This document shows positions 27,174-42,543 of a DNA stretch of 64,000 nucleotides, one piece after another. Both the position numbers and the translations under genes were made by a program. The stretch is from Candidatus Kapaibacterium thiocyanatum (GTDB lineage Bacteria > Bacteroidota > Ignavibacteria > Kapaibacteriales > Kapaibacteriaceae): NCBI GenBank assembly GCA_001899175.1, contig MKVH01000024.1, positions 496,001-560,000 on the forward strand, written 5' to 3'. Numbering within the stretch: the first letter of the stretch is position 1; every line of letters begins with the position of its first letter. Below the pieces are notes generated by a model. The model saw only the letters and a program-made list of their open reading frames with translations. It searched no databases and had not been told where the DNA came from.

Positions 27174-28019
27174 ATGAACGACGTAGTCGGTGAATTGATT
27201 GGCAAGGAATTCAAGTGTCTTGACAAAGGCTTCATTCGTCTCATCGACGTGATGGGCGACGACTCCTCCATCGTGCAGGCTGCCCGCGTTTCGTACGGCA
27301 CCGGCACGAAGAAGGTACACGAGGATCGAGGCCTCATCCGCTATCTGCTGCGCCATCTTCACACGACGCCCTTCGAGATGGTGGAATTCAAGTTCCACGT
27401 CAAGCTCCCCATCTTCGTGGCCCGGCAATGGATCCGTCATCGTACGGCGAACGTCAACGAATACAGCGGACGCTATTCGGAGATGAAGGACGAGTTCTAC
27501 GTGCCGTCGCTGGACCAGATCCGTCCGCAGAGCATCGTCAACAAGCAGGGGCGTGGCGAAGAAGCCTTCCCGCAGGAACAGGCCGAAGCCATCGCCGAGC
27601 GTATGCGTACGACGCAGGATGGTCTCTACGACGAGTATCAGGACCTGCTCGGCGAGAACCTGGCGCGCGAGATCGCGCGCATCAATCTTCCCGTCTCGAA
27701 CTACACGGAGTGGTACTGGAAGGTCGACCTGCACAATCTCTTCCACTTCCTGAAGCTTCGCATCGATCCGCATGCCCAGTACGAGATCCGCGTCTATGGC
27801 GAAGCCATGGCCGAGATCGTGCGCCAGATCGTTCCCGTGGCCTATGAAGCCTTCGAGGACTATATCCTGCACTCGCGGCGGTTCTCGCGTAACGAATTGC
27901 GCGCGCTGAGGTCATACCTTACGACGCTGCCCGATACCGTGGAAGCACTGGAGCCCTTCGGGCTGAAGGGCCGGGAGGCGCGGGAATTCCTCGACAAATT
28001 GCGGGACACCTTCGCATGA
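27174..28019 (+). CDS. thyX: flavin-dependent thymidylate synthase
   Basis: 281 residues. It makes dTMP from dUMP using methylene-tetrahydrofolate, FAD and NADPH. The ThyX signature RHRTANVNEYSGR (RHRxxxxNExSxR) lies at about residues 88-100, and TTPFEMVEFKFHVK and the C-terminal ALRSYLTTLP region fit the family. The length is at the upper end of normal. A GAGGAG site precedes the start. The end overlaps the next gene by 4 nt (ATGA), linking it to the dihaem protein in one transcript. No thyA is seen here. Confidence 0.97.
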   Translation: MNDVVGELIGKEFKCLDKGFIRLIDVMGDDSSIVQAARVSYGTGTKKVHEDRGLIRYLLRHLHTTPFEMVEFKFHVKLPIFVARQWIRHRTANVNEYSGRYSEMKDEFYVPSLDQIRPQSIVNKQGRGEEAFPQEQAEAIAERMRTTQDGLYDEYQDLLGENLAREIARINLPVSNYTEWYWKVDLHNLFHFLKLRIDPHAQYEIRVYGEAMAEIVRQIVPVAYEAFEDYILHSRRFSRNELRALRSYLTTLPDTVEALEPFGLKGREAREFLDKLRDTFA

Positions 28020-29053
28020 GCACTCGTCGACATTGCTGGATACTGGCGGTGATCGCCGTGGCACTGGCCGGATGTACGGATACGCTCCGTCCTCCGGCCG
28101 AAGAGCCGTTCCCTGCAGTGCCTGCCCACATGCCTGCCGTGCCGTTTCCTGCGGACAATCCCATCACACGGTCGAAGGCCGAGCTCGGACGTCATCTGTT
28201 CTACGAGATGCGCCTGTCGTCGGACAACACGGTGGCCTGCGGTACCTGTCACCGTCAGGAAAATGCCTTCACGGATTCGCCCAATCAGGTCAGCGTCGGC
28301 GTGGACGGTGCACGCGGCCAGCGCAACGCACCTCCGTTGCTCAACGTCGCCTATCAGAACGTGTTCTTCTGGGACGGCCGTGCCGGTACGCTCGAGGAGC
28401 AGGCCATGGCTGCCTTCATGAATCCTGCGGAGATGAATGCCGATACCGTCAAGGCCGCAGAGCTGATGCGTTCCGGCGACTACCGCCGGATGTGGAAGGA
28501 TGCCTGGGGCGATACCGTGATCACGATGCGTCGCCTGATCCAGGCCATCACCACCTTCGAACGCACGATCGTCGGTGCCGACAGTCCATACGACCGCTAC
28601 ATCCGTGGCGACAGGAACGCGCTCAATGCCCAGGAGCAGGAGGGGATGCGCCTCTTCTTCAGCGAGCGCACGCAGTGCGGGGCCTGCCATGGCGGAGTGA
28701 ACTTCACGGACAACCAGTATCATAACGTCGGTCTCTTCCATCACTATTTCGATGTCGGCCGGTACAACGTCACGCGCAAGCCAGCGGACGAAGGACGGTT
28801 CAAGACGCCGACGCTGCGCAACATCGAGCTTACCCCGCCCTACATGGCGACGGGGGACAGCGAACAGGGAGACCTCCGCACGCTCGAGCAGGTGATGGAT
28901 CACTACGATCGTGGGGGGACGAACTTCGTCAACAAGGACAAGCGCGTTCGCAAGCTCAGCCTCACCGATGCCGAGAAAGCGGCGATGGTAGCCTTCATGA
29001 AGGCGTTGACGGATCGGTCATTGCTGACCGACCCACGCTTTGCGAAGCCGTAA
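28016..29053 (+). CDS. dihaem cytochrome c peroxidase / MauG-type lipoprotein
   Basis: 345 residues with a lipoprotein signal (lipobox LAGC, Cys20), so it is probably anchored in the periplasm. It has two haem c-binding motifs, CGTCH at about 74 and CGACH at about 220, the diagnostic arrangement of bacterial cytochrome c peroxidases and MauG enzymes. Typical segments such as NAPPLLNVAYQNVFFWDGRA and FKTPTLRNIELTPPYMATGD are present. It would reduce hydrogen peroxide or oxidise a protein or small partner. Coupling to thyX by a 4-nt overlap has no obvious metabolic meaning. Confidence 0.93.
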   Translation: MSTRRHCWILAVIAVALAGCTDTLRPPAEEPFPAVPAHMPAVPFPADNPITRSKAELGRHLFYEMRLSSDNTVACGTCHRQENAFTDSPNQVSVGVDGARGQRNAPPLLNVAYQNVFFWDGRAGTLEEQAMAAFMNPAEMNADTVKAAELMRSGDYRRMWKDAWGDTVITMRRLIQAITTFERTIVGADSPYDRYIRGDRNALNAQEQEGMRLFFSERTQCGACHGGVNFTDNQYHNVGLFHHYFDVGRYNVTRKPADEGRFKTPTLRNIELTPPYMATGDSEQGDLRTLEQVMDHYDRGGTNFVNKDKRVRKLSLTDAEKAAMVAFMKALTDRSLLTDPRFAKP

Positions 29054-29113
29054 CATGGAGCGGCGATCGCGTCATCACACCTTCACGATGACGTAATCCT
29101 CGCATAATGCCCC

Positions 29114-30106
29114 GTGGCGAGTTTTGCCACCGTGAAACGAATACTGTTCATTTGCGGCTCGATGAACCAGACGACGATGATGCACGCCATCGCGAAGCAT
29201 CTCTCGGACGCCGATTGCTGGTTCACTCCTTTCTATACCGATGGGCTCCTCGCCGTCCTCGAACGGAAGCAGTTCCTCGAATTCACCATCGCCGGCCGTA
29301 CCTTCAAGGATCGTGTGTTCTCGTATTGCGAGCGGCACGATCTGCGGGTCGACTATCGCGGACAACGCCAGCCCTACGACCTCGTGGTCACCTGTAGCGA
29401 CCTCGTCGTGCCGAAGAACATCCGGCACCGCCGGATCGTGCTGGTCCAGGAAGGGATGACCGACCCGGAGAATCTGGCCTATTACCTCGTCAAGTGGCTC
29501 GGCCTTCCTCGTTACCTGGCCTCGACGTCCACGACGGGCCTGAGCGATGCCTACCTCAAGTTCTGCGTGGCCTCGGAAGGGTATCGCGATCACTTCATCC
29601 GCAAGGGCGTGCGACCCGACAAGATCGAAGTCACGGGTATTCCGAACTTCGACCACTGTGCTGCCTATCACGACATTCCGTTCCCGCACAAGGACTATGT
29701 CCTCGTGGCTACGTCCGATTCCCGCGAGACCTTCAAGTACGAGAACCGTCGTCGATTCATCGAACGTGCCGTACGGATCGCCGATGGACGCGAGCTCATC
29801 TTCAAGCTGCATCCGAACGAACGTGTGGACCGTGCGACGAAGGAAATAGAGCAGTGGGCACCCGGCGCCATCGTCTACGACAGAGGCGACGTCCATCCGA
29901 TGATCGCACACTGCGATACGCTCGTGACACGCTTCTCGTCATGCGTCTACGTCGGCATCGCCCTGGGCAAGACGGTGTTCAGCGACTTTCCGCTGGAACA
30001 GCTCCACCGCATGACGCCGATCCAGAACGGCGGTACGTCGGGTGCCGTCATCGCCGATGTATGCCGGCGCGTGATGGACCGCTCCTACGGCAGGAGGGCG
30101 GCATGA
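29114..30106 (+). CDS. GT-B-fold glycosyltransferase-like protein of a surface-sugar operon
   Basis: 330 residues from a GTG start at 29114; the GTG at 29132 (VKRILFICGSMNQ) is an alternative. The N-terminal Rossmann-like start, the IFKLHPNERVDRA segment near residue 235 and TLVTRFSSCVYVGIALGK near 275 resemble the C-terminal half of GT-B transferases such as CDP-glycerol transferases or UDP-GlcNAc 2-epimerase relatives. There is no signal peptide and there are no membrane spans. It is the first gene of a run of nine closely spaced genes and overlaps the cytidylyltransferase by 4 nt. The donor sugar is unknown. It is not a clear NeuC-type epimerase. Confidence 0.65.
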   Translation: MASFATVKRILFICGSMNQTTMMHAIAKHLSDADCWFTPFYTDGLLAVLERKQFLEFTIAGRTFKDRVFSYCERHDLRVDYRGQRQPYDLVVTCSDLVVPKNIRHRRIVLVQEGMTDPENLAYYLVKWLGLPRYLASTSTTGLSDAYLKFCVASEGYRDHFIRKGVRPDKIEVTGIPNFDHCAAYHDIPFPHKDYVLVATSDSRETFKYENRRRFIERAVRIADGRELIFKLHPNERVDRATKEIEQWAPGAIVYDRGDVHPMIAHCDTLVTRFSSCVYVGIALGKTVFSDFPLEQLHRMTPIQNGGTSGAVIADVCRRVMDRSYGRRAA

Positions 30107-30927
30107 CGCAGCGTATCATCGTCGTCTGCCAGGCCCGCACGGGTTCCACCCGCCTGCCGCGCAAGGTCATGCTTCCGCTCGAAGGCAAGCCGCTCGTCAT
30201 CCGGTTCATGGAGCGCGTGATGCGCTCGAAGCTCGCCACGCAGTGCGTAGTGGCGGCGACGACGGATCCGGCCGACGACCTGCTCGTGGCCACCTGCCTC
30301 GAACACGGTATTCCCGTATTCCAGGGTCATCCCACGGATCTTCTCGATCGACATTACAGAGCAGGCATCGCCTATTCCGCCGACGTCGTGGTGAAGGTTC
30401 CGAGCGACTGCCCCCTCATCGATCCGGTCGTCGTTGATCGTATCATCGGCAACTATCTCGCAAGCCCTGCCGATGTGGACTACGTCGGCAATCTCCATCC
30501 CGCGACGTATCCCGATGGGAACGACGTGGAACTCATGACCATGTCCGTACTCGAGCGTGCGTGGCACGGCGCGCACCGCGCGCACGAGCGCGAGCATACG
30601 ACGCCGTGGATGTGGGACGGCAATCCGGACGTCAGGGTGAGGAACGTCGCATGGGAGCGGGGGCTGGATTACAGCATGTCGCATCGCTGGACGATCGACT
30701 ATCCCGAAGACTACATGCTGGTGAAGGCGGTCTATCACGAGCTCTTCCCGACGAATCCGCAGTTCGGTATCGACGACGTCCTGGACCTGCTCGAGCGCCG
30801 TCCGGAAATCCTCGCACTGAACGCCCACCTCGCAGGCGTCAACTGGTACCGTGAGCATCTCGACGTCCTGCGGACCATCTCGCAGGAACACACTCGTCCC
30901 GCACCAATACAGCGTTCCCACATATGA
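30103..30927 (+). CDS. SpsF-like cytidylyltransferase (CMP-sugar activation)
   Basis: 274 residues. The N-terminal nucleotide-binding motif VVCQARTGSTRLPRKVMLPL is that of the cytidylyltransferase family 3 (SpsF, KdsB- and NeuA-related). KVPSDCPLIDPVVVD carries the metal/nucleotide aspartate. The start is set by the ATGA overlap with the preceding gene. Members activate keto-sugar acids or related sugars as CMP or other nucleotide derivatives. With a NeuB-like synthase in the same operon, it is the probable activating enzyme for the acid sugar made here (inference). Confidence 0.85.
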   Translation: MTQRIIVVCQARTGSTRLPRKVMLPLEGKPLVIRFMERVMRSKLATQCVVAATTDPADDLLVATCLEHGIPVFQGHPTDLLDRHYRAGIAYSADVVVKVPSDCPLIDPVVVDRIIGNYLASPADVDYVGNLHPATYPDGNDVELMTMSVLERAWHGAHRAHEREHTTPWMWDGNPDVRVRNVAWERGLDYSMSHRWTIDYPEDYMLVKAVYHELFPTNPQFGIDDVLDLLERRPEILALNAHLAGVNWYREHLDVLRTISQEHTRPAPIQRSHI

Positions 30928-31787
30928 CGACTACGATCATCGACAAGGCGGCATTGCAGCAGCGTGCGTTGCGCGTACGGGAACACATCCTCAGGATGTC
31001 CACGGATGGAGGATGCTTCACGGGTGCCTCGCTCTCCTGTGCCGATCTCCTCGTCTACCTCTACGGTCACTTCCTGAACGTGAGCCCCGATACGGTCCAT
31101 GCACCGCACAGGGACTACCTGCTGCTGTCGAAGGGCCATGACGTACCTGCGCTCTACGGTACGTTCGCCGAACTCGGCTTCATGGATCCGCAGCGGTTGA
31201 ACAACCATCTGTCCGTGAACGACAGCATCTACTGGCACCCCAACCGTGCCGTCGACGGTGTGGAATTCCATTCGGGATCGCTCGGCCATCTGCTGTCGGT
31301 AGGCATCGGTCTCGCCCTCGACATCAGGATGCGTGGCGATGCGAACAGGGTCGTCGTCATCCTTGGCGACGGCGAACTCAACGAAGGCAGCGTATGGGAA
31401 GCCTGTCTCACCGCCCAGGCCCTCGCACTGGAGAACCTCATCGTCGTCGTGGACCGCAATCATTTCCAGGCCAACATCCGCACGGAAGAACTGATACCGC
31501 TCGAACCCATCACGGACAAGTTCGAGGCGTTCGGATGGAATTCCCTGAGCGTCGATGGCCATGACTTCGATGCACTGCACGCGGTCTTCGAGGGATGGGC
31601 TCCGCAGCATGGCCGCCCCACGGCCATCATCGCCTCGACGCAACGCGGCCACGGCGTTCCGAGTATCGCCGAACGTGCCGATCGCTGGTTCTGCAACTTC
31701 ACGACCGAAGAGGTCGACGCGCTACTACAGGAGCTACACGGATCAGAACGCACTACCCTTACTTCCGAAACACTTCACGTCCGCTGA
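30924..31787 (+). CDS. transketolase, N-terminal (ThDP-binding) subunit
   Basis: 287 residues matching the N-terminal half of transketolase. The diphosphate/Mg motif GDGELNEGSVWEACLTAQAL is followed by the IVVVDRNHFQAN segment; LLLSKGHDVPALYGTFAELG is the substrate-channel part. It pairs with the next gene, which encodes the C-terminal half; split transketolases of this kind are often found in sugar-biosynthesis clusters rather than in central metabolism. Overlaps both neighbours (4 nt upstream, 1 nt downstream), suggesting balanced synthesis of the two subunits. Confidence 0.93.
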   Translation: MTTTIIDKAALQQRALRVREHILRMSTDGGCFTGASLSCADLLVYLYGHFLNVSPDTVHAPHRDYLLLSKGHDVPALYGTFAELGFMDPQRLNNHLSVNDSIYWHPNRAVDGVEFHSGSLGHLLSVGIGLALDIRMRGDANRVVVILGDGELNEGSVWEACLTAQALALENLIVVVDRNHFQANIRTEELIPLEPITDKFEAFGWNSLSVDGHDFDALHAVFEGWAPQHGRPTAIIASTQRGHGVPSIAERADRWFCNFTTEEVDALLQELHGSERTTLTSETLHVR

Positions 31788-32743
31788 TGTATTCAACGTA
31801 CGAACAGACCCTCTACGATCTCGCACGCCAGGACGAGCGGGTGATCGTCATGACGGCGGAGAACCGTGCCGCCATACGGAACCTTCCGGATCTCCTCGGT
31901 GACAGGTTCATCGACGTCGGCATCGCCGAACAGACGATGATCGGCGCCGCTGCCGGGCTGGCGTTGCGTGGCCGTATCGTCGTGACGCATGCCCTTGCGA
32001 CGTTCCTCACGATGCGTGCCTTCGAATTCATCCGTACGGACGTCGGTATCGCGAACCTGCCGGTCATCATGGTCGGTGGCGTTCCCGGGTTCCTGTCCGA
32101 CGGCAACGGCCCGACGCATCAGGCCATCGAAGACATCGCCCTCATGCGCGGCATCCCGAACGTCGGCGTCTTCTGTCCGTCCGACGCCGAAGACCTCGTC
32201 ATCGGCCTGCCCCACATCGTCAGGAGCGGGCGCCCTTTCTACATCCGCTATACCAACGGTCCGGCTCCCGTGGAGCATCGTACCCCGTTCGCACTCGGCA
32301 GTGCGGAAATCGTCAGCGGCCCGGCCGTAGGCCCTCGCGACGTCACGATCCTCACCTACGGCTTCCTGCTGCGCCAGGCGATGGAGGCGGCCCATCTGCT
32401 GTCGACCGATGGCCTGACGGTCCAGGTCGTGAACATGCGGACGCTCAAGCCCATCGATACGGCGTTGCTGCTCGACGCGGCGAAGGAGAGCACACTGGTC
32501 GTGACGGTGGAGGATCACTTCCGTACGGGCGGCCTGCATACGATCCTCGCGGAGACGCTTCTCGCACATCAACGCATGTGCAAGGTGCAGAGCATCGCAC
32601 TCGACGAACGCTGGTTCCGCCCCGGGCGTCTCACGGAAGTGCTCCATCACGAAGGCTTCACCGGCGAGCGGATCGCACACCGTATCCGCACGGCCCTCAC
32701 CACCACCATCGAGGTACACAATGTCGATCGCAACGGCCTCTGA
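31787..32743 (+). CDS. transketolase, C-terminal subunit
   Basis: 318 residues comprising the pyrimidine-binding and C-terminal domains. VGIAEQTMIGAAAGLALRG contains the glutamate that activates ThDP, and LTYGFLLRQAMEAAHLL starts the last domain. The ATG overlaps the stop of the N-terminal subunit (TGATG). Together the pair would transfer a two-carbon unit between sugars. The gene end overlaps the aminotransferase start by 23 nt. Confidence 0.93.
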   Translation: MYSTYEQTLYDLARQDERVIVMTAENRAAIRNLPDLLGDRFIDVGIAEQTMIGAAAGLALRGRIVVTHALATFLTMRAFEFIRTDVGIANLPVIMVGGVPGFLSDGNGPTHQAIEDIALMRGIPNVGVFCPSDAEDLVIGLPHIVRSGRPFYIRYTNGPAPVEHRTPFALGSAEIVSGPAVGPRDVTILTYGFLLRQAMEAAHLLSTDGLTVQVVNMRTLKPIDTALLLDAAKESTLVVTVEDHFRTGGLHTILAETLLAHQRMCKVQSIALDERWFRPGRLTEVLHHEGFTGERIAHRIRTALTTTIEVHNVDRNGL

Positions 32744-34067
32744 TCCACGGGATCCGGACATCACCGCCTCCAACGACCTGCGACGCCGTGCTACGGGCCT
32801 GATTCCCGCGCTCACGCAGACGCTGGCGAAGGGACCGGGACAGTACGTGGGCGGCATCGCTCCCGTCTATGCCGTGCGCGGTCATCATGGTCACGTATGG
32901 GATGCCGACGGCAATGAATACATCGACATGACGATGGCCGTAGGCCCGCTTTCGCTGGGCTATACCTTCGACGTCGTCGACGAAGCGGTACGCAGGCAAC
33001 TGGCCGACGGTATGACGTTCTCGCTCATGCATCCGCTGGAAGTGGAAGTGGCCGAACTCGTACGCGACGTCGTTCCGAACGTCGAATGCGTTCGTTACAG
33101 CAAGACGGGCTGCGACGTCACGACGGCCGCCGTGCGCCTGGCACGTGCCTTCACCGGACGCAATACCATCCTCTGCTGCGGCTATCATGGCTGGCATGAC
33201 TGGTACATCGGCGTGACGGACCGCGCAGCGGGAATCCCGGAAGCGGTGCGCGATCTGACCTATACGTTCAACTACAACGACGTGACGAGCGTACTCGACG
33301 CCATCGACGACGATACGGCCGCCATCATCCTCGAGCCCGCCGTCTTCACGGTACCCGTGGACAACTTCCTGTCCGTTCTTCGCGAGATCTGCGATGCACG
33401 TGGTATCCTTCTGATCTTTGATGAAATGTGGACGGGCTTCCGCATCGCTCTCGGCGGAGCACAGGAATACTTCGGTGCCCGTGCCGATCTCGTCTGCTTC
33501 TCCAAGGCCGTCGCCAACGGCATGCCCTTGTCCATCCTCGCAGGTCGTGCCGATGTGATGTCGCTGCTCGAACGCGACGTCTTCTTCTTCACGACGTTCG
33601 GAGGAGAGGCCCTGTCGCTGGCGGCGGCGAAGGCCACCATCGAATTCATGCGCGATCACGACGTAACCACGGCCATCGCGGCGAAGGGAACGCGTCTGCG
33701 CGATGGATACAATGCCATCGCGGCGGCACACGGCATGGACTTCACCAGGGCGTCGGGTCTTCCATGTCGTTCCATCGTCACCTTCGATGCGTCTGCAGGC
33801 GATCCGCTGCTGATGAAGTCCCTGATGCAGCAGGAGATGATCCGCCGTGGCGTGTTGTGGGGCGGCTTCCATACGGTATGCTACGCACATACCGATGAAG
33901 ACATCGAACACGTTCTGGATGCCTACGATGCCGTGCTCCCCATGCTGCGCGATGCGGTCGTCAACGGCACGGTCGACGAACTGCTGCGTGGCGAGCCCGT
34001 CCAGGCCGTCTTCCGCAAGACGAGCAACTTCAACATGAAACCCAGGCGCGTCGCGGAGTCCGTATGA
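32721..34067 (+). CDS. class III (glutamate-1-semialdehyde-type) PLP aminotransferase
   Basis: 448 residues. The GSA-aminotransferase-like core includes VWDADGNEYIDMTMAVGPLS, RYSKTGCDVTTAAVRLARAF, the phosphate-binding FDEMWTGFRIALGG, and the PLP lysine in LVCFSKAVANGMPLS. It is unlikely to be HemL, because it lies deep in a sugar operon, overlapping a transketolase (23 nt) and an SDR (4 nt). A role as sugar aminotransferase adding an amino group to a keto- or aldehyde sugar is inferred. Confidence 0.88.
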   Translation: MSIATASDPRDPDITASNDLRRRATGLIPALTQTLAKGPGQYVGGIAPVYAVRGHHGHVWDADGNEYIDMTMAVGPLSLGYTFDVVDEAVRRQLADGMTFSLMHPLEVEVAELVRDVVPNVECVRYSKTGCDVTTAAVRLARAFTGRNTILCCGYHGWHDWYIGVTDRAAGIPEAVRDLTYTFNYNDVTSVLDAIDDDTAAIILEPAVFTVPVDNFLSVLREICDARGILLIFDEMWTGFRIALGGAQEYFGARADLVCFSKAVANGMPLSILAGRADVMSLLERDVFFFTTFGGEALSLAAAKATIEFMRDHDVTTAIAAKGTRLRDGYNAIAAAHGMDFTRASGLPCRSIVTFDASAGDPLLMKSLMQQEMIRRGVLWGGFHTVCYAHTDEDIEHVLDAYDAVLPMLRDAVVNGTVDELLRGEPVQAVFRKTSNFNMKPRRVAESV

Positions 34068-34879
34068 ACGACGTCCTCTCGTCCTTCCATCTCGACGGTC
34101 GTGTGGCCATCGTCACCGGTGCAGCCGGCCTCATCGGTCGTGAGCACTGCCGTGCACTCGCGGCAGCAGGTGCCGTCGTCATCGCCGCAGACGTCGATCA
34201 GCACGCCGCCATCGATGCCGCCGCCGAGATCGGCGAACCGCATCGCGGCGTAATGCTCGACGTGACCAATCCCGGGTCGCTCGTGGCACTGCGCGACATG
34301 CTGCTTGCGGACTACGGACGCATCGACGTGCTCGTGAACAATGCGGCCATCAACGATATGGTCGAGCATCCTGTGCTGGCCGCGGAGCTATCGTCCTTCG
34401 AACGGTATCCGCTCGCCTTGTGGAAGCGCGTCTTCGACGTCAACGTCACGGGTGTCTTCCTCTGCTGCCAGGTCTTCGGTGCCGTCATGGCCGGACGCGG
34501 AGCGGGCAGCATCATCAACATCGGTTCCACCTACGGTAGTGTAGCGCCCGATCAGTCCATCTACAGGACGCCCGACGGCAAGCAGCCCTTCTTCAAATCG
34601 GCCGCCTATCCCGCCAGCAAGGGTGCGGTGGGGATGCTGACGCGATTCCTCGCATCGTACTGGGGACATGCGGGCGTGCGGGTCAATACGCTCTCGCCCG
34701 GGGGCGTCGAGAACGGTCAGCAACAGTATTTCATCGACAACTACAGCAAGCGCACACCCATCGGCCGCATGGCCGGTCGCTCGGACTATCGGGGTGCCCT
34801 GGTCTTCCTCGCGAGCGATGCATCCTCCTACATGACCGGACACGATCTGGTCGTGGACGGAGGCTGGACGATCTGGTAA
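34064..34879 (+). CDS. short-chain dehydrogenase/reductase
   Basis: 271 residues of the classical SDR fold. The cofactor motif is TGAAGLIGREHC (about 20), the NNAAIN motif lies near 90, and the active-site Tyr and Lys are in AAYPASKGAVGMLTRFLASY (Y about 180, K four residues later). The aspartate after the second strand (AADVDQ) suggests a preference for NAD. The insert YGSVAPDQSIYRTPDGKQPF before the Tyr is longer than in small SDRs. It probably oxidises or reduces a sugar intermediate of this operon. Confidence 0.9.
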   Translation: MNDVLSSFHLDGRVAIVTGAAGLIGREHCRALAAAGAVVIAADVDQHAAIDAAAEIGEPHRGVMLDVTNPGSLVALRDMLLADYGRIDVLVNNAAINDMVEHPVLAAELSSFERYPLALWKRVFDVNVTGVFLCCQVFGAVMAGRGAGSIINIGSTYGSVAPDQSIYRTPDGKQPFFKSAAYPASKGAVGMLTRFLASYWGHAGVRVNTLSPGGVENGQQQYFIDNYSKRTPIGRMAGRSDYRGALVFLASDASSYMTGHDLVVDGGWTIW

Positions 34880-34902
34880 TTCATTCCATCCCATCAGTAG
34901 AG

Positions 34903-35817
34903 ATGAGGCCCATCATGTCGCAACGTTCAATCATGCTCGGCGACCGTCGCGTAGGCGACGACGCACCGGTCTACGTCATTGCCGAAATCGGCATCAACCA
35001 CAACGGCTCGGTCGAAACCGCGAAGAAGATGATCGACGGTGCCGTTGCCGCCGGGGCCGACTGCGTCAAGTTCCAGAAGCGTACTCCCGAGATCTGCGTT
35101 CCGCGCGATCAGTGGCTGATCGAACGCGATACGCCCTGGGGACGCATGACCTATATCGACTACCGTTACAAGGTCGAATTCAATGCCGAAGACTACGCCG
35201 AGATCCAGCGCTATTGCCGCGCCAATGGTATCGACTGGACAGTGTCGTGCTGGGACGAGGAAGCCGTCCAGTTCATGGAACGCTACTTCGACGTACCCTT
35301 CTACAAGGCCGCCTCGGCTTCGCTCACGGATATCTCCCTGTTGCACGCCATGCAGGCCACCGGACGTCCGTTGATGATCTCTACGGGTATGTCCACGATG
35401 GAGGAGATCGAAGAAGCCATCTCCGTGCTCGATCCTCGCCAGCTTCTCGTGGCTCATGCGACGTCGTCCTATCCAGCACCCGTCGCCGAGCTCAACCTCA
35501 GGATGATCACCACGTTGCGTGCGCGGTTCCCGGAGATCGTGATCGGATATTCCGGACACGAGACGGGCCTCGCCACGACGTGGGCGGCCGTCGCTCTCGG
35601 TGCCGGCTTCGTCGAACGCCACATCACACTCGATCGCGCCATGTGGGGTACGGACCAGGCCGCCTCCGTCGAACTCGGTGGACTCGAACGTCTTGTAGAG
35701 AACATCCGCGACATCGAAGTGGCTCTCGGTGACGGCATCAAGCGCGTCTACGACAGCGAGATCGGTCCGCGTGCCAAGCTGCGCCGCGTTCCTTCACGCG
35801 AGACAGTGACGGTCTGA
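34903..35817 (+). CDS. NeuB-family keto-sugar-acid synthase lacking the SAF domain
   Basis: 304 residues (or 300 from the ATG at 34915). The NeuB TIM barrel is clear: VIAEIGINHNGSVETAKKMI, GADCVKFQKRTPEICVP, MISTGMSTMEEIEEAI and GYSGHETGLATTWAAVALGA. NeuB enzymes condense phosphoenolpyruvate with an amino sugar to make sialic-type nine-carbon acids. The usual C-terminal SAF (antifreeze-like) domain of about 60 residues is missing, and the canonical GPDH near the active site reads GTDQ (AMWGTDQAASVE). The substrate may therefore differ from ManNAc. No separate SAF protein lies next to it; a sterol-desaturase-like gene follows with 1-nt overlap. Confidence 0.88.
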   Translation: MRPIMSQRSIMLGDRRVGDDAPVYVIAEIGINHNGSVETAKKMIDGAVAAGADCVKFQKRTPEICVPRDQWLIERDTPWGRMTYIDYRYKVEFNAEDYAEIQRYCRANGIDWTVSCWDEEAVQFMERYFDVPFYKAASASLTDISLLHAMQATGRPLMISTGMSTMEEIEEAISVLDPRQLLVAHATSSYPAPVAELNLRMITTLRARFPEIVIGYSGHETGLATTWAAVALGAGFVERHITLDRAMWGTDQAASVELGGLERLVENIRDIEVALGDGIKRVYDSEIGPRAKLRRVPSRETVTV

Positions 35818-36608
35818 TGAGCAATCTCGAAGTCGTCACGATGGGGATTACGATAGGGGCCGCGCTGCTGTTCATCGCACTGGAGCGTATGGCCCCCTAT
35901 TCGAAGGGGCAGAGACTCTTCCGTGAAGGATTCTGGAACGACTTCTTCTGGTACACGATCGTCCAGAGCTACGTTCTCGGCCTGATCATCTTCAACGTAC
36001 TCCACTACGTGGACACCGGAACCGGAATACATCGATGGACGCTCGTACGCGATCTGCCGCTCGTCGTGCAGGTCGTGATCTTCCTCGTCGTGCACGACCT
36101 CTACATCTACTGGTTCCATCGCCTCCAGCATCGCAGCGCAACGCTCTGGCGGCTGCACGAGGCCCATCACTCGACACACGATGTGGACTGGTTGAGCGGA
36201 TCGCGTTCGCACTCGCTCGAAATCATGATCAACCAGACCATCGAGTTCGCGCCGATCGTCCTGCTGGCCTCGCCCGAGGTCGCCGTCATCAAGGGATGTA
36301 TCGATGCCGTCTGGGGAATGTATATTCACAGCAACATCGACGTGCGAACGGGCTGGTTGCAATACGTGATCAACGGTCCGGAAATGCATCGCTGGCATCA
36401 TGCGGTGGACGACGAGGCGCACAACAGGAATTTCTCGACAAAGCTGGCGATATGGGACTGGATGTTCGGTACCGCCTACCTCCCGAAGGGTGCCAAGCCA
36501 TCCGGATACGGTCTCGGCGCACCCTTCCCGAAGAACTATTTCGTACAGCATGCCTATGCCTTCAGACCCCTCGACGACGATGCCGTCGACGATCGTTCCG
36601 GATCATGA
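35817..36608 (+). CDS. sterol desaturase / fatty-acid hydroxylase superfamily membrane protein
   Basis: 263 residues with about four membrane helices and the eight-histidine di-iron signature of the superfamily: HDLYIYWFHRLQH (about 98), HEAHHS (about 119) and HRWHH near 190. Members use O2 to hydroxylate or desaturate lipids or carotenoids. Here the gene is embedded in a surface-sugar operon, so an acyl chain of a glycolipid or lipid A may be the target (inference). The start is fixed by the TGATG overlap with the NeuB-like gene. Confidence 0.9.
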   Translation: MSNLEVVTMGITIGAALLFIALERMAPYSKGQRLFREGFWNDFFWYTIVQSYVLGLIIFNVLHYVDTGTGIHRWTLVRDLPLVVQVVIFLVVHDLYIYWFHRLQHRSATLWRLHEAHHSTHDVDWLSGSRSHSLEIMINQTIEFAPIVLLASPEVAVIKGCIDAVWGMYIHSNIDVRTGWLQYVINGPEMHRWHHAVDDEAHNRNFSTKLAIWDWMFGTAYLPKGAKPSGYGLGAPFPKNYFVQHAYAFRPLDDDAVDDRSGS

Positions 36609-37296
36609 CACCGAGGTCGATACGATCATCGTGTCGGACATTCATCTCGGGTCGGATGTAAGCCGGTCGAGCAGGCTGCTCGAACTGCTCCGGTCCTGCA
36701 CATATCACAGGCTGATCCTCAACGGCGATGTCTTCGACGATCTGAACTTCAACAGGTTGTCGAAGGACGACTGGAAGTTCCTTTCCTACATCCGCAGGAT
36801 GTCGAACCCACGCAGGGGAGTGGACGTCGTCTGGGTCGTGGGCAATCACGATGGTGGCGTGGCGGAAATCCTGAGCCATCTGCTCGGCGTACCCGTCCAC
36901 GAAGAATATCTGTGGGAATCGCACGGGCGTCGCCATCTCGCCATCCACGGACATCAGTTCGACAAGTGGATCAACGATCACGTCATCGTGACGGCCGTCG
37001 CGTCGTGGCTCTATCTGCTGTTGCAGAAGATGGACCCCGAACACCGCATGAGCCGATGGGTGAAACGTACCAGCAAGAAGTGGCTTCGCCTGAGCGACAA
37101 GGTAGGGCACGATGCCGCAGTCTATGGCAGGAAGCAGCATGAAGCGGACGTGGTCTTCTGCGGCCATACGCATCATGCGACGGAGACGAGCGTCGATGGC
37201 GTGCGATACTTCAATTCCGGGTGCTGGACGGACAAGCCTTCACAGTACGTCACGATCGACCTGCAAGGGGAGATACGCATACAGGAATGCCTCTAG
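36580..37296 (+). CDS. LpxH-like metallophosphoesterase
   Basis: 238 residues with all calcineurin-like phosphoesterase motifs: SDIHLGS, GDVFDD, VVGNHDGG, IHGHQFD and CGHTHHATE. The spacing and the hydrophobic segment TAVASWLYLLLQKM resemble UDP-2,3-diacylglucosamine diphosphatases (LpxH/YbbF), which work on lipid A precursors, though other pyrophosphate substrates are possible. I chose the ATG at 36580, overlapping the previous gene by 29 nt; 36550 and 36556 are alternatives. It is the last gene of the surface-sugar operon. Confidence 0.8.
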   Translation: MPSTIVPDHDTEVDTIIVSDIHLGSDVSRSSRLLELLRSCTYHRLILNGDVFDDLNFNRLSKDDWKFLSYIRRMSNPRRGVDVVWVVGNHDGGVAEILSHLLGVPVHEEYLWESHGRRHLAIHGHQFDKWINDHVIVTAVASWLYLLLQKMDPEHRMSRWVKRTSKKWLRLSDKVGHDAAVYGRKQHEADVVFCGHTHHATETSVDGVRYFNSGCWTDKPSQYVTIDLQGEIRIQECL

Positions 37297-37298
37297 CA

Positions 37299-37320
37299 CG
37301 ATCGTCATCGTGTACGATCG
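37299..37320. terminator. weak hairpin between convergent genes
   Basis: CGATCGT pairs with ACGATCG (7 bp, 8-nt loop) right after the phosphoesterase stop. No T-run follows. Confidence 0.35.
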
Positions 37321-37350
37321 AGGGGAGCGATGACGGACGCTACGACGGAC

Positions 37351-37746
37351 TCAGCGTCGTCGCGACATGCACTGTACTGCCTTCCGCAGCTTCTCGTCGG
37401 TATGGTACAAGGCGAGGAGCATCGTCAGGATGTCGTCGATCTTCTTTACGGGAATATCCTCGTCCGGATCGAGGAGCAGGATCTTCACGCGAGCACGCCC
37501 TTCGCTGACGAGATCGGGATGGTCGATCTTGCTGCCTTCCATGAAGCCGATGTAGGGCATCCCGAGCTTCTTGTGTATCCAGAAATAGCAGAAGATCTTG
37601 CCCTTGTAGCAGAAGAAGGGCATCTGATACTTCATGGTCTGGGTGATGTTCGGATCCTTGTCGAGGATGAGCTTCCTGAGAAAGAGGAACAAACCCTGCA
37701 GGGGTTCTTCGTAGCGAGCGAAGTAGTTGTTGGATTCAGCGACCAT
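37351..37746 (-). CDS. DUF1801 / YdhG-like small protein
   Basis: 131 residues with the DUF1801 pattern: an N-terminal helix pair, then ITQTMKYQMPFFCYKGKIFC and HKKLGMPYIGFMEG. The family is small and cytosolic, with no agreed function (iron-chaperone frataxin-like fold for YdhG in Bacillus). It lies 15 nt downstream of the GyrI-like gene and is probably transcribed with it. Confidence 0.75.
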   Translation of the reverse strand: MVAESNNYFARYEEPLQGLFLFLRKLILDKDPNITQTMKYQMPFFCYKGKIFCYFWIHKKLGMPYIGFMEGSKIDHPDLVSEGRARVKILLLDPDEDIPVKKIDDILTMLLALYHTDEKLRKAVQCMSRRR

Positions 37747-38324: not shown

Positions 38325-41300
38325 CTATCCCGTATACTTTCTGTGGCGGTGATACGCCGCATAGAACAGTTGCGGGAAGATCACCAGCGAGAGGATGGCT
38401 GCCGTGACGAAGCCGCTGACGACGACGATGGCCAGGGGACGCTGGGCGTCCGAACCGATACCCGTCGACAATGCGGCCGGCAACAGGCCCAGGATGCCCA
38501 TGAGTGCCGTCATGATGATGGGACGTATGCGGCTTTCCACGCCTGCGCGGATGGCGTCCTTCAGCGACAGCTTGTCGACCGTACGCCGTCGGTGGAATTC
38601 GTTGACCAGCAGCACGCCGTTCAGGATGCATATGCCCGACAGGGCGATGAAGCCGATGCCCGCCGAGATGCTGAAGTTGGTACCCGAGAGAAGCAGACCC
38701 CAGATGCCGCCGATCAATGCGAACGGTACGTTCAGGATGATGAGGACGGCGTCGCGGACGTTCCCCGTGGTGGCCAGGAGGATCAGGAAGATGAGGATGA
38801 GGCTGATGGGAACCGCGACGGCCAGTGTGGACTCCGCGCGCTGCTGGTTCTCGAAGTCGCCCGTCCACGTCAGCGTCACTCCCGCAGGCAGCTTCACGGC
38901 TTTGCCGATCTGCTGCTGCGCGTCGGCGATGGTGCTGCCCATGTCGCGGTCGCGGATGGAGAACTTCACGGCGATGAATCGTGCGGCGCCCTCGCGGAAG
39001 AGGAGCAACGGGCCGGTGACGGACTTGATGGTGGCGATTTCCTTCAGCGGAACGGTCGTGCCGTGGAGCGTGGGTACGCGCAGATCGGCGATCTCCGTTT
39101 CGTTGCTGCGATATTCCTGCAGGTAGCGCACACGGATACCGTACTTGCGCTCGCCATCGTAGAACTGCGATGCGGCTTTCCCGCCGATGGCCATGGCGAT
39201 GACGCTGTTCGCGTCGGCCGACGTCACGCCGTAGGTGGCCATGCGCTGCTTGTCGAGCTCGATGCGGAGTTCGGGTTGACCGAGGTTGCGGATGATGCCG
39301 AGGTCGGCGATGCCGGGTACCTTGTGAAGGATCGACTCCACATGCTCGGCCTGTTTCTCGATGACGTGCAGGTCCTGGCCGAAGATCTTGACGGCGATCG
39401 ATCCCTTCACACCCGACACGGCTTCCTCGACGTTGTCCATGATCGGCTGCGAGAAGTTGAAGTTGATGCCCGGATAGATGGCGAGGCGACGTTGCATTTC
39501 GGACACCAGGTCGTCGCGTGTGATATGCCGCTTCCACTGTGCCTGCGGCACGAGGTCGACATGGAATTCCACGTTGTAGAATCCCGTTGGATCCGTTCCG
39601 TCGTTCGGGCGTCCCGTCTGCGACAGCACACCGCGCACTTCGGGGAAGTTGCGGATGATGTCACGCATGCCTGCCGACAGACGCACGGCTTCCTCGAGCG
39701 AGATGCTGAGGGGAAGATTGGCCCGTACGTACATGGCTCCTTCGTTGAGGTGCGGCAGGAATTCCGTACCCAGCAGGCCGAAGGACATGATACCGGCTGC
39801 CACGACACCGGCCGTGGCCGTGATGGAGACCTTCCTGTTACGTGCCGCGAGATCGTAGAGGCCGATGATACGTTTGCGGATGAAGTCGACGATGACGTTG
39901 TGGCGCTCCCGCACGTTCTTCCGCATGAGGATACTCACCAGTACCGGTACGAGCGTGAGCGTGAGCAGCAACGCTCCAAGCAGGGCGAACGTCAACGTAT
40001 AGGCCAGCGGCGTGAAGAGCTTCCCTTCGACCTTCTGGAAGGCGAAGAGCGGAATGAGACACGTGACGATGATGATCTTGGCGAAGAAGACGGACTTGCC
40101 CATCTCCGTGCCCACGCGCTTGATGATGCCGAGCTTCGACATCTTGTTGAACCGGTCCATGCCCATCTTGTGGGATAGATGGTCCAATGCCACGAATATC
40201 CCCTCCACCATCACCACGGCCCCGTCGATGATGATGCCGAAGTCGATGGCGCCGATCGACAGCAGATTCGCGGGCATGCCCTTGATCTTGAGGCAGACGA
40301 AGGCGAAGAGCAATGACAGGGGAATGATGATGGCCACGATGAACGTGGCGCGCAGGTCGGCCATGAAGAGCAGCACGATGACCGTGACGAGGATGATGCC
40401 TTCCACGATGTTGTGCGATACCGTGCCGATGCAGTAGTCGATGAGGTTCTGTCTGTTGTAGAAGGGCACGATCTCCACATCGTTCGGCAGCGCCGTCGCG
40501 CGTATCTCGTCGAGCTTCTCCTGGAGGGCCTTGATGACGAGGCCTGGATCCTTGCCCTTGCGCATGACGACGATACCCTGGACGACGTCGGGCTCCGCGT
40601 TGCGTCCGACCTGGCCGAGTCTCGGCAGGGTGGATTCGTAGACGTCTGCGACGTTCTTGACGAGGATCGGCATGCCGTCGATGTAATCGACGATGATGTT
40701 GTTGATGTCGTCGATCGACTGCAGCAGGCCGATACCGCGGACGACGTAGGCCTGATCGTTCTTCTCGATGACGTCGCCACCGACGTTGACGTTGCTCTTG
40801 GTGACGGCGTCGTAGACGGCGAGCGGCGTGAGGTCGTACTTCTTGAGCAGGTTCGGATTGACGCCGATCTCGAAGGTCTTGACCACGCCGCCGAAGCTCA
40901 CGACGTCCGCCACGCCGCTCACGGACCTGATGCGGCGTTCGATCACCCAGTCCTGCAGCGACTTCAGATCGCTGACCGAGTGCGTCTTGCTGCGCAGCGT
41001 ATAGCGGAAGATCTCGCCCGTGGGGCCATACGGTGGTTGTATCTCGGGATTGACGCCTTCGGGCATGTCGGCATTGGCGAGCAGGCTGGCGACGTTCTGC
41101 CGTGCTTCCAGGTCCGAGACGTCGTCGTCGAAGATGATCCTGATCACGGACAGACCGAAGAGCGTCGTACTGCGCAGCGAACTCTTCCTCGCGACGCCGT
41201 TCACGGACGCTTCGATGGGGATGGTGACGAACTTCTCGACTTCTTCCGCACCTCTTCCCGGCCATTGCGTGATGATCGTCACCTGCGTATTGGTGACATC

Positions 41301-41429
41301 GGGGAAGGCATCGATGATCGTCGTCGAGAACGATACCAGGCCAGCCACGATGAGACCTGCCGTCGCGAAGAGGATCAGGAAGCGATTCCGCAGCGAGAAG
41401 GCGATGATGAATCTGATGAGTGCGGTCAT
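38325..41429 (-). CDS. czcA: CzcA-type heavy-metal efflux RND transporter
   Basis: 1034 residues, inner-membrane proton-driven pump of the HME-RND family, with two sets of six membrane helices and large periplasmic loops (starts with RFIIAFSLRNRFLILFATAG). The helix-4 motif DFGIIIDGAVVMVE carries the Asp-Asp-Glu proton relay typical of CzcA/NccA-type (Zn, Co, Cd, Ni) pumps rather than CusA-type copper/silver pumps. It overlaps the adaptor gene by 4 nt and is followed by a strong hairpin, ending the czcCBA operon. The precise metal cannot be told. Confidence 0.94.
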   Translation of the reverse strand: MTALIRFIIAFSLRNRFLILFATAGLIVAGLVSFSTTIIDAFPDVTNTQVTIITQWPGRGAEEVEKFVTIPIEASVNGVARKSSLRSTTLFGLSVIRIIFDDDVSDLEARQNVASLLANADMPEGVNPEIQPPYGPTGEIFRYTLRSKTHSVSDLKSLQDWVIERRIRSVSGVADVVSFGGVVKTFEIGVNPNLLKKYDLTPLAVYDAVTKSNVNVGGDVIEKNDQAYVVRGIGLLQSIDDINNIIVDYIDGMPILVKNVADVYESTLPRLGQVGRNAEPDVVQGIVVMRKGKDPGLVIKALQEKLDEIRATALPNDVEIVPFYNRQNLIDYCIGTVSHNIVEGIILVTVIVLLFMADLRATFIVAIIIPLSLLFAFVCLKIKGMPANLLSIGAIDFGIIIDGAVVMVEGIFVALDHLSHKMGMDRFNKMSKLGIIKRVGTEMGKSVFFAKIIIVTCLIPLFAFQKVEGKLFTPLAYTLTFALLGALLLTLTLVPVLVSILMRKNVRERHNVIVDFIRKRIIGLYDLAARNRKVSITATAGVVAAGIMSFGLLGTEFLPHLNEGAMYVRANLPLSISLEEAVRLSAGMRDIIRNFPEVRGVLSQTGRPNDGTDPTGFYNVEFHVDLVPQAQWKRHITRDDLVSEMQRRLAIYPGINFNFSQPIMDNVEEAVSGVKGSIAVKIFGQDLHVIEKQAEHVESILHKVPGIADLGIIRNLGQPELRIELDKQRMATYGVTSADANSVIAMAIGGKAASQFYDGERKYGIRVRYLQEYRSNETEIADLRVPTLHGTTVPLKEIATIKSVTGPLLLFREGAARFIAVKFSIRDRDMGSTIADAQQQIGKAVKLPAGVTLTWTGDFENQQRAESTLAVAVPISLILIFLILLATTGNVRDAVLIILNVPFALIGGIWGLLLSGTNFSISAGIGFIALSGICILNGVLLVNEFHRRRTVDKLSLKDAIRAGVESRIRPIIMTALMGILGLLPAALSTGIGSDAQRPLAIVVVSGFVTAAILSLVIFPQLFYAAYHRHRKYTG

Positions 41430-42520
41430 TGTACGATTGCGTTGAATAGCAGAAGTTGATTGCTGGCCACCACATGCTCTCCTTCGGCCAGGCCATCCAT
41501 GATGTACGTACGGTCTCCCACCTCACGGTAGGGATGGACCTTCCGCGGCGAGATCTTGTCGTTGGCTCCTACGACAAGTACCCAATGACTGTTGTTGTGG
41601 AAGATGAGCGACGTCGTCTTGACGGACGGCAGGTAGCGATGCTCCTTCCTGCGGATGACGACGTTGGCGAACATCTCCGGCTTCAGCAGGAGTCGGGGAT
41701 TCGATACCTGGATCTTGATCTTCATCGTACGGTTACCGGGATCGAGAACGCTGTAGATGCGATTGATGATGCCGTGGAAGGTCGTGTCCGGATAGGCGAT
41801 GACCTGGATGGCGACCGAGTCCCCTTCACGTACTGCATTGATGTCCGATTCGTAGACGTTGGCCAGTACCCATACGCGCGACAGATCGGCGACCGTGAAC
41901 AGGGGGCTGTCGTCGTCGGCACGGAAGTGGGACCCCTGTGTGATGGCACGCTGAACGATGGTGCCGGTGCGCGGGGATTTCACGGTGTAGTTCGACGACG
42001 ACGACGAGCCGAGCAGCCCGCTGACGTCCTGCGTGCGCTGAAGCTCCGATCGTGTGCGTTCCACCTCACGTACGGCCGCTTCGTAATCGCGATCCGTCAT
42101 CAGGCCGGACTTGTGGAGTATCTCCGCTGCATGCAGGCTCTTCTCTGCCACGGCGACGTTGCTTCGGGCCGCTGCGGCCTGCGACGATACGTCCATGACT
42201 TCGGCGGACTGGACGACGGCGAGAGACTGCCCCTTGCGAACCTGGTCGCCGATGTCCGCACGGACGTCGACGGCGATGCCGCCGGCGAAGGGCACGACGC
42301 GGGAGATGAGATCCTCGTCGTACGTCACGCGGCCCGTCAGCGATATGTACTGCTCGGCAGCGGTGGCGTGGACCGTATCGACACTGATGGGAATGTTCTT
42401 CGACACCGAGTCGAGAGATAGTGCCTGGGCACGGGGCGCGTCGTCGTCGCTGTCGGCATGATTGCATGCAGTCAGGGATGCGATGGCGATCGTGGACAGG
42501 AGGACATGATGGAGTCGCAT
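41426..42520 (-). CDS. czcB: RND efflux periplasmic adaptor lipoprotein (CzcB-like)
   Basis: 364 residues with a lipoprotein signal (lipobox LTAC, Cys19) and the membrane-fusion-protein layout. A lipoyl/barrel-sandwich half (VVPFAGGIAVDVRADIGDQV) is followed by a helical hairpin (about 120-160), the second half of the lipoyl domain (YTVKSPRTGTIVQRAITQG) and beta-barrel domains. It links the RND pump to the outer-membrane channel. The gene lies between czcC and czcA on the same strand. Confidence 0.92.
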   Translation of the reverse strand: MRLHHVLLSTIAIASLTACNHADSDDDAPRAQALSLDSVSKNIPISVDTVHATAAEQYISLTGRVTYDEDLISRVVPFAGGIAVDVRADIGDQVRKGQSLAVVQSAEVMDVSSQAAAARSNVAVAEKSLHAAEILHKSGLMTDRDYEAAVREVERTRSELQRTQDVSGLLGSSSSSNYTVKSPRTGTIVQRAITQGSHFRADDDSPLFTVADLSRVWVLANVYESDINAVREGDSVAIQVIAYPDTTFHGIINRIYSVLDPGNRTMKIKIQVSNPRLLLKPEMFANVVIRRKEHRYLPSVKTTSLIFHNNSHWVLVVGANDKISPRKVHPYREVGDRTYIMDGLAEGEHVVASNQLLLFNAIVQ

Positions 42521-42543
42521 GAGGCTACTCGGAGTCAGGTGGA

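Follow-up and report, generated by a model that had tools for sequence, protein, structure and literature searches.

The CMP-Kdn pathway described for Bacteroides thetaiotaomicron (BT1714 synthase) and Prymnesium parvum condenses phosphoenolpyruvate (PEP) with mannose 6-phosphate, employs, in B. thetaiotaomicron, a Kdn-9-phosphate (Kdn-9-P) phosphatase and activates Kdn (2-keto-3-deoxynononic acid) with cytidine monophosphate (CMP); the enzymes set out there are a synthase, a CMP-Kdn synthetase and a phosphatase, and that outline names no transketolase (TK), class III aminotransferase or short-chain dehydrogenase/reductase (SDR) step (PMC6200933). A nine-gene cassette that resembles this pathway in part was analysed within a 64,000-nucleotide stretch of DNA (the window; positions 496001–560000 of contig MKVH01000024.1; coordinates below are window positions) from the 3.27-Mb genome of Candidatus Kapaibacterium thiocyanatum. 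It encodes a GT-B-fold protein, an SpsF-type cytidylyltransferase, the two halves of a split TK (TKn and TKc), a class III aminotransferase (AT3), an SDR, a NeuB-family synthase that lacks the SAF domain, a PF04116 membrane hydroxylase and a metallophosphatase, and thus differs from the CMP-Kdn pathway in its use of SpsF as cytidylyltransferase and in its operon phosphatase. BT1713 and BT1715 are presumably further members of the B. thetaiotaomicron pathway. The cassette is a real and unusual variant of nonulosonic acid pathways. As far as a targeted literature search shows, its combination of TK, AT3, SAF-less NeuB and SpsF is new among them; that search found no literature in which a transketolase is combined with SpsF and NeuB, or in which it is linked to nonulosonic acids, a cytidylyltransferase and an aminotransferase.

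Other described systems share single elements with the cassette. The sps pathway for legionaminic acid in Bacillus subtilis resembles it in SpsF, in the NeuB-family protein SpsE and in SpsB, which has a TagB domain with DEG and HP motifs, but follows a UDP-N-acetylglucosamine (UDP-GlcNAc) route with SpsM, SpsC, SpsD and SpsG, and a transketolase is not mentioned in the main text; SpsF is needed there for legionaminic acid transfer onto the spore surface (PMC7439481). In azinomycin biosynthesis (AziC5/C6) and LysW-type two-carbon extension, a split TK adds two carbons to a semialdehyde and an aminotransferase follows, although the substrate is an amino acid derivative (PMC9570651). A split TK on a plasmid of Streptomyces sp. 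CL7 lies beside a DegT aminotransferase, LysW and genes annotated as ArgB/ArgC, like an amino-group-carrier pathway; it differs from the cassette TK in keeping the first active-site histidine, and its neighbouring aminotransferase is of the DegT type. The 290-residue NeuB-family chain of PDB 6ncs, which we take to be from Leptospira, is similarly short, with only 115.6 bits to the window NeuB. For an amine at C8 there is a precedent in a nonulosonic acid of the Flexibacter maritimus O-antigen, but this sugar is a 5,7,8-triamino pentadeoxy compound (PMC3210612).

The cassette genes work together. Among 60 related genomes, the present one included, the cassette NeuB (at least 67% identity) is found in 23, the next matches lying below 40% identity save for one 48% fragment. 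TKn (at least 54%), AT3 (at least 55%) and the hydroxylase (at least 57%) are each present in 22 of the 23 NeuB-bearing relatives and in none of the 37 others. TK and AT3 are missing from a single NeuB-bearing genome (G007), for which completeness is 86% and in which NeuB sits at a contig end; another (G042) carries NeuB, TK and AT3 on three separate contigs, all retained. A phylum sample of 198 genomes from 103 genera was chosen by TK, so that selection was independent of NeuB, and contained the cassette TK in 31 genomes and 23 genera. Within 15 kb of TK in the 20 loci fetched from this sample were TKc (20), AT3 (19), the GT-B gene and SpsF (17 each), SDR and NeuB (15 each), a KdsC-like gene (14) and the hydroxylase (13). 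NeuB is present in all 20 genomes: the five without it in the fetched stretch have a NeuB elsewhere, 69–73% identical, which lies on the same contig about 11 kb (G169) or 18 kb (G215) away, or on another contig or far off (G162, G204 and G092). NeuB is likewise found elsewhere in G211, giving six of the six genomes checked. A first-pass annotation, made from the sequence of the window, had assigned the TK and the aminotransferase to the same system as NeuB, and both sets of counts agree with this.

A scan of genome contigs for NeuB returned 562 loci, the best 80 of which were compared with the nine window proteins; the following statements refer to these 80. The recurrent order is GT-B, SpsF, TKn, TKc, AT3, SDR, (KdsC-like), NeuB, hydroxylase, with some cassettes whole, some cut by contig ends and some loci missing genes. 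Because gene order and content recur in many genomes, the arrangement pointed out in the first-pass annotation is more than chance. Cassette records come from Ignavibacteria, Kapaibacterium, Myxococcales, Polyangia, Anaerolineae, Ardenticatenia and Saprospiraceae, so that Myxococcota and Chloroflexota are represented too, and a plasmid of the methanotroph Methylomagnum ishizawai bears a cassette in which the HAD gene is placed after NeuB. Phyla are intermingled in the cassette NeuB clade, which suggests horizontal transfer, and the cassette is probably moving horizontally. Thirty loci are actinobacterial (29 Streptomyces and one Desertihabitans), with NeuB about 65% identical; no other window protein above 80 bits was found near NeuB in these 30 loci, and a NeuA–HAD fusion (one fusion was scanned by Pfam) directly precedes NeuB in 21 of them. 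In a quick NeuB tree that took in six of the 30, the actinobacterial sequences adjoin the cassette NeuBs, with SH-aLRT values of 95 for the join, 99 for the actinobacterial side and 92 for the cassette side. A GT52 polysialyltransferase considered after the Streptomyces NeuB was dropped; Pfam found nothing in the scanned open reading frame (ORF), which is itself probably an artificial fusion. NeuB (47% identical) also occurs on two contigs filed as viral (L120 and L122), together with TKn, an SDR and a class III aminotransferase; in the same stretch of L120, Pfam further identifies SpsF, a radical SAM protein and an MptE-like protein.

The first-pass annotation had noted that its proposal would fail if the TK halves were the only ones in the genome and served central metabolism. 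The housekeeping TK is a second split pair of adjacent ORFs with canonical active-site motifs at C21:57521–58327, and identity of the cassette TK with the housekeeping enzyme was rejected on this ground. TK positions were mapped by alignment to the split TK 6yak/6yaj and to the housekeeping pair, and are given in L. salivarius numbering. His28, His263, His461 and Asp469 are substrate-binding residues in the L. salivarius enzyme (PMC4601599), and the housekeeping TK retains the consensus at all four positions. The cassette TKs lack this set: the GHxG histidine (taken as His28) is Phe in 21/21 aligned sequences, the EWHG histidine (taken as His263) is Phe or Tyr in 21/21, and among the 23 C halves the HAG histidine (taken as His461) is always Val or Phe and the aspartate before G[PA]THQ (taken as Asp469) always Asn. 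Three pocket positions have thereby turned hydrophobic. In contrast, the thiamine diphosphate (ThDP)-binding GDG motif, the catalytic Glu and the pyrimidine-side His are kept (GDGELNEG...DRN, IAEQ and THQ). Loss of the usual substrate-binding residues with retention of the ThDP motifs and the catalytic Glu indicates that the cassette TK probably transfers a two-carbon unit on a non-phosphorylated carbonyl substrate; we take the His461 position to be on the phosphate side. The D469T exchange in Escherichia coli TK raised activity towards propionaldehyde five-fold, and the S385Y/D469T/R520Q variant takes benzaldehyde derivatives (PMC6310800). If our reading is true, the cassette would hold a natural TK changed at Asp469, a position that protein engineers have altered for non-polar aldehydes.

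The NeuB domain of the window protein is full length (PF03102 positions 1–241 of 241, 249.8 bits), and this protein is the only PF03102 match in the genome. It does not have the make-up of the SAF-type synthases for N-acetylneuraminate or pseudaminic acid: PF08666 is not matched, as the first-pass annotation stated, whereas two SAF-type NeuBs of relatives do match it, and the NCBIfam models NnaB and PseI remain below cut-off. The GTDQ motif reported in place of GPDH is real but no oddity, since GTDQ or GSDQ (WG[TS]DQ) is the rule in this NeuB clade and occurs in 42 of the 43 cassette NeuBs, one row having GSDH, and in 30/30 actinobacterial relatives. In most cassettes NeuB has a KdsC-like HAD gene as a neighbour, usually placed between it and SDR. 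The one KdsC-like protein compared has its best PDB match in 3e81/3e8m, presumably the Kdn-9-P phosphatase of B. thetaiotaomicron. Together with these genes, the NeuA–HAD fusion at the related Streptomyces NeuB, the presence of Kdn in Streptomyces walls (PMC11481543) and the known route from PEP and mannose 6-phosphate (PMC6200933) make a Kdn-9-P-type synthase the best reading of NeuB, one to which we give slightly more than even weight. The first-pass annotation had envisaged a different acid sugar built with a two-carbon transfer. The pathway is indeed unlike the ordinary sialic and legionaminic ones, but construction of the acid itself by that transfer is not borne out. What the NeuB clade and the KdsC-like phosphatase of most relatives suggest is an ordinary condensation of PEP with a hexose phosphate, as for Kdn, in which case TK, AT3 and SDR would work on a non-phosphorylated compound.

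The phosphatase step, like the altered TK active site and the broad distribution, goes beyond the first-pass annotation. Forty loci include SDR, NeuB and a flank of at least 2.6 kb past NeuB. KdsC alone is present in 29 of them and the metallophosphatase alone in six; five lack both, and no locus combines the two, an exclusion within loci with a Fisher p of 0.0001 (uncorrected for kinship). The operon metallophosphatase could perform the dephosphorylation in the lineage of the window, which we judge to have a little less than an even chance; it had been called LpxH-like, and the metallophosphatase family holds, the likeness to LpxH being a family-level call only. A strict swap with KdsC was rejected, since G029 and G037 have a KdsC-like gene at NeuB as well as a distant metallophosphatase homologue, and it is also opposed by G055, which lacks NeuB yet has such a homologue.

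SpsF is the sole cytidylyltransferase of the cassette, and no NeuC- or NeuA-type match above cut-off was found among the nine operon proteins with Pfam. This agrees with the first-pass annotation, except that the GT-B protein shares its fold with NeuC-type epimerases. Its only Pfam match is sub-threshold (Epimerase_2, 22.5 bits against a cut-off of 30.6). The AlphaFold2 model (pLDDT 92.9) has its nearest folds in NeuC/UDP-GlcNAc 2-epimerases (Z about 17), followed by TagF/TarL (Z 14–15), and no sialyltransferase is among the 50 matches listed for it (Foldseek, VIA). Q112-E113-G114 and H233-P234 are invariant in 32 sequences; set against the sialyltransferase-like (D/E)(D/E)G and HP motifs, the protein has QEG, in which the first place is not D/E, and HP. 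HP-type motifs also occur in NeuC-type epimerases. A CMP-sugar transferase would be consistent with the QEG and HP motifs, although they are no proof of one, and we consider this function rather likely.

The hydroxylase is not an OlsE by score (117.5 bits against an NCBIfam cut-off of 475). Together with the acyltransferases, LPG_synthase_TM proteins and similar neighbours present in some genomes, it suggests that the acceptor is membrane-bound: OlsF-like acyltransferases adjoin the cassette in six loci (two scanned), LplT, GNAT and LPLAT are neighbours on the Methylomagnum plasmid, and LPG_synthase_TM proteins precede the GT-B gene in two genomes. The attachment to a hydroxylated lipid proposed in the first-pass annotation is plausible in so far as the hydroxylase co-occurs with NeuB (22/23 against 0/37), but no PF13444 N-acyltransferase of the ornithine-lipid type was detected in this genome, and that family shows no link to the cassette (8/23 NeuB-bearing against 7/37 other relatives). 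An ornithine-lipid-type head group was rejected for these reasons, and the lipid idea is kept only as a rival explanation.

AT3 does not score as the glutamate-1-semialdehyde aminomutase HemL (TIGR00713, 230 bits against 527; NF004856, 378 against 486), and it also matches the aminopentol aminotransferase 6hbs. A second nonulosonic variant occurs in two relatives (L144 and L146), whose clusters combine a SAF-type NeuB with a class III aminotransferase, SpsF and an aldo/keto reductase. These clusters and the viral-filed L120, which joins NeuB, SpsF, a class III aminotransferase, an SDR and TKn, favour action of AT3 on a sugar. Editing and amination of the sugar, or of its partner, are the probable tasks of TK, AT3 and SDR, and we give an even chance to the reading that a widespread route to a modified nonulosonic sugar, with a Kdn-type core tailored by these three enzymes, is represented by one copy in the window.

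A pathway is proposed in which every chemical step is inferred from the gene content, conservation, co-occurrence and active-site changes that were observed. NeuB would join PEP to a hexose 6-phosphate (mannose 6-phosphate is the likeliest candidate) and so form a Kdn-9-P-type acid, whose phosphate would be removed by the KdsC-like enzyme in most relatives and here by the operon metallophosphatase or an unlinked HAD enzyme. SpsF would form the CMP sugar, and the GT-B protein would transfer it to an acceptor, probably one that is held in the membrane and is also a substrate of the PF04116 hydroxylase. For the tailoring, the SDR could oxidise C8 of the acid to give a -CHOH-CO-CH2OH end, which transketolases recognise, TK could exchange or remove C8–C9, and AT3 could aminate the resulting carbonyl to yield an 8-amino nonulosonic or 7-amino heptulosonic acid; this chemistry of C8 oxidation, TK and amination is tentative. 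Bolder, and in our estimate unlikely, is the proposal that a re-specialised TK edits the Kdn-type acid after its synthesis and transamination follows, so that an 8-amino nonulosonic or 7-amino heptulosonic acid would sit on a hydroxylated membrane lipid, as a bacterial counterpart of a ganglioside head group and an undescribed, widespread class. The TK marker occurs in about one in six of the sampled phylum genomes (31/198), yet the targeted literature search did not find the combination. If the pathway is true, a common surface or lipid sugar would be made through two-carbon chemistry, and the cassette offers testable enzymes, with M. ishizawai RS11D-Pr as a named carrier that bears it on plasmid pRS11DPr1.

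Several observations weigh against a Kdn-type core tailored by TK. Thirteen cassettes from Ignavibacteria lack the TK pair. An unlinked fused TK is present in nine of these 13 genomes and in none of 13 TK-bearing genomes (uncorrected for kinship), and appears to replace the missing pair; of the remaining four, three (G061, G064 and G070) have no fused TK, and the fourth, G062, shows just a 38% fragment at the end of a contig. The nine fused proteins (L151–L159) are 461–696 residues long, two being cut at contig ends; where covered, they keep the first histidine (8/8), lack the equivalent of Asp469 (8/8) and contain GHDVP (9/9), which is also found in 20/21 cassette TKn sequences. By its context, the Streptomyces NeuB would be a Kdn synthase; its sister placement has an SH-aLRT of 92 in the quick tree, and a careful tree leaves the fork open. 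The operon of the window has no KdsC-like gene, and KdsC-like HADs occur in 52 of the 60 relatives, with or without NeuB. Glu56 (39/39) and Lys67 (38/39) are conserved in 39 KdsC-like sequences, which include six from loci showing no AT3 (L046, L053, L069, L073, L074 and L077), but the pair was rejected as proof of a Kdn-9-P phosphatase because an unlinked HAD protein of this genome has it too; given also how common such HADs are, the pair does not discriminate. Finally, the GT-B protein could be an epimerase.

Three other explanations were weighed. TK and AT3 could act not on the sugar acid but on an aldehyde, such as that of a lipid, and give it a serinol- or sphingoid-like 2-amino-1,3-diol end, with ordinary Kdn as the head group of an aminolipid. 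The recurrence of lipid-type neighbours (the hydroxylase, OlsF-like acyltransferases, LplT/GNAT/LPLAT and LPG_synthase_TM), the three hydrophobic TK pocket positions and the match of AT3 to 6hbs would all suit this, and TK followed by transamination is a proposed biocatalytic route to aminodiols (PMC6310800). The lack of PF13444 in the genome and of its linkage to the cassette speaks against it, as do the two other nonulosonic-type clusters in which a class III aminotransferase and SpsF accompany a SAF-type NeuB and tie AT3 to sugars; we consider the aminolipid doubtful.

The first-pass annotation instead had TK and AT3 act before NeuB, building an unusual amino-aldose for PEP condensation, for which the split Rif15 TK, which acts before aminoDAHP synthase, provides an analogy. 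The shared operon and strict co-occurrence are consistent with this order, but the 30 actinobacterial loci have a NeuB of about 65% identity with none of the other window proteins above 80 bits, so the NeuB substrate is probably a common one. Moreover, TK has lost the histidine presumed to be on the phosphate side, whereas the product of NeuB should, given its KdsC-like partner, carry a phosphate, and we see only a slim chance for action before NeuB. An ordinary operon for Kdn or sialic acid, in which the metabolic genes would be incidental, could account for NeuB, SpsF and the phosphatase, which belong to ordinary families, but is contradicted by the co-occurrence, by an order conserved across phyla and by the second, canonical TK in the genome, and is very improbable. 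A Kdn-type core tailored by TK, AT3 and SDR is preferred here.

The nine plus-strand ORFs at 29114–37296 are all co-directional and overlap or almost touch (Table 1; ORF check with starts re-examined), and the operon and gene families of the first-pass annotation are confirmed, with Pfam matches above cut-off for all but the GT-B protein. The overlaps are 4 nt for GT-B/SpsF, 4 nt for SpsF/TKn, 1 nt for TKn/TKc, 23 nt for TKc/AT3 and 4 nt for AT3/SDR; a 23-nt gap separates SDR from NeuB, and NeuB/hydroxylase and hydroxylase/phosphatase overlap by 1 and 29 nt. A sequence scan of 28900–37700 found no promoter-like sites and no plus-strand terminator-like sites, which fits a single transcript but does not prove it.

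Table 1. Genes of the cassette, with window positions, family matches and putative roles.
Feature	Position	Strand	Family match and features	Putative role
GT-B-fold protein	29114–30106	+		Probable CMP-acid-sugar transferase; epimerase possible
SpsF-type cytidylyltransferase	30103–30927	+	CTP_transf_3 (PF02348, 78.5 bits)	Probable CMP activation of the acid
TKn, TK N-terminal half	30924–31787	+	Transketolase_N; Phe at the His28 and His263 positions	
TKc, TK C-terminal half	31787–32743	+	Transket_pyr and Transketolase_C; ATG start at 31787; Val at the His461 and Asn at the Asp469 position	
AT3, class III (glutamate-1-semialdehyde aminotransferase-type) aminotransferase	32721–34067	+	Aminotran_3	
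SDR	34064–34879	+	adh_short_C2 (PF13561, 156.6 bits)	
SAF-less NeuB-family PEP-dependent synthase	34903–35817	+	NeuB (PF03102)	Probable Kdn-9-P-type synthase
PF04116 membrane hydroxylase/desaturase	35817–36608	+	FA_hydroxylase (Pfam); best NCBIfam match OlsE, below cut-off	
Calcineurin-like metallophosphatase	36580–37296	+	Metallophos; ATG start at 36580	Possible stand-in for KdsC-like enzyme

Upstream of the cassette, at 27174–29053, genes for a ThyX-like and a cytochrome-c-peroxidase-like protein were read by eye, and their homologues lie upstream in three further loci (L035, L037 and L038). The minus strand at 38325–43827 carries an apparent RND efflux set, recognised from ORF translations only, which consists of an AcrB-like protein, a periplasmic adaptor and an outer-membrane factor.

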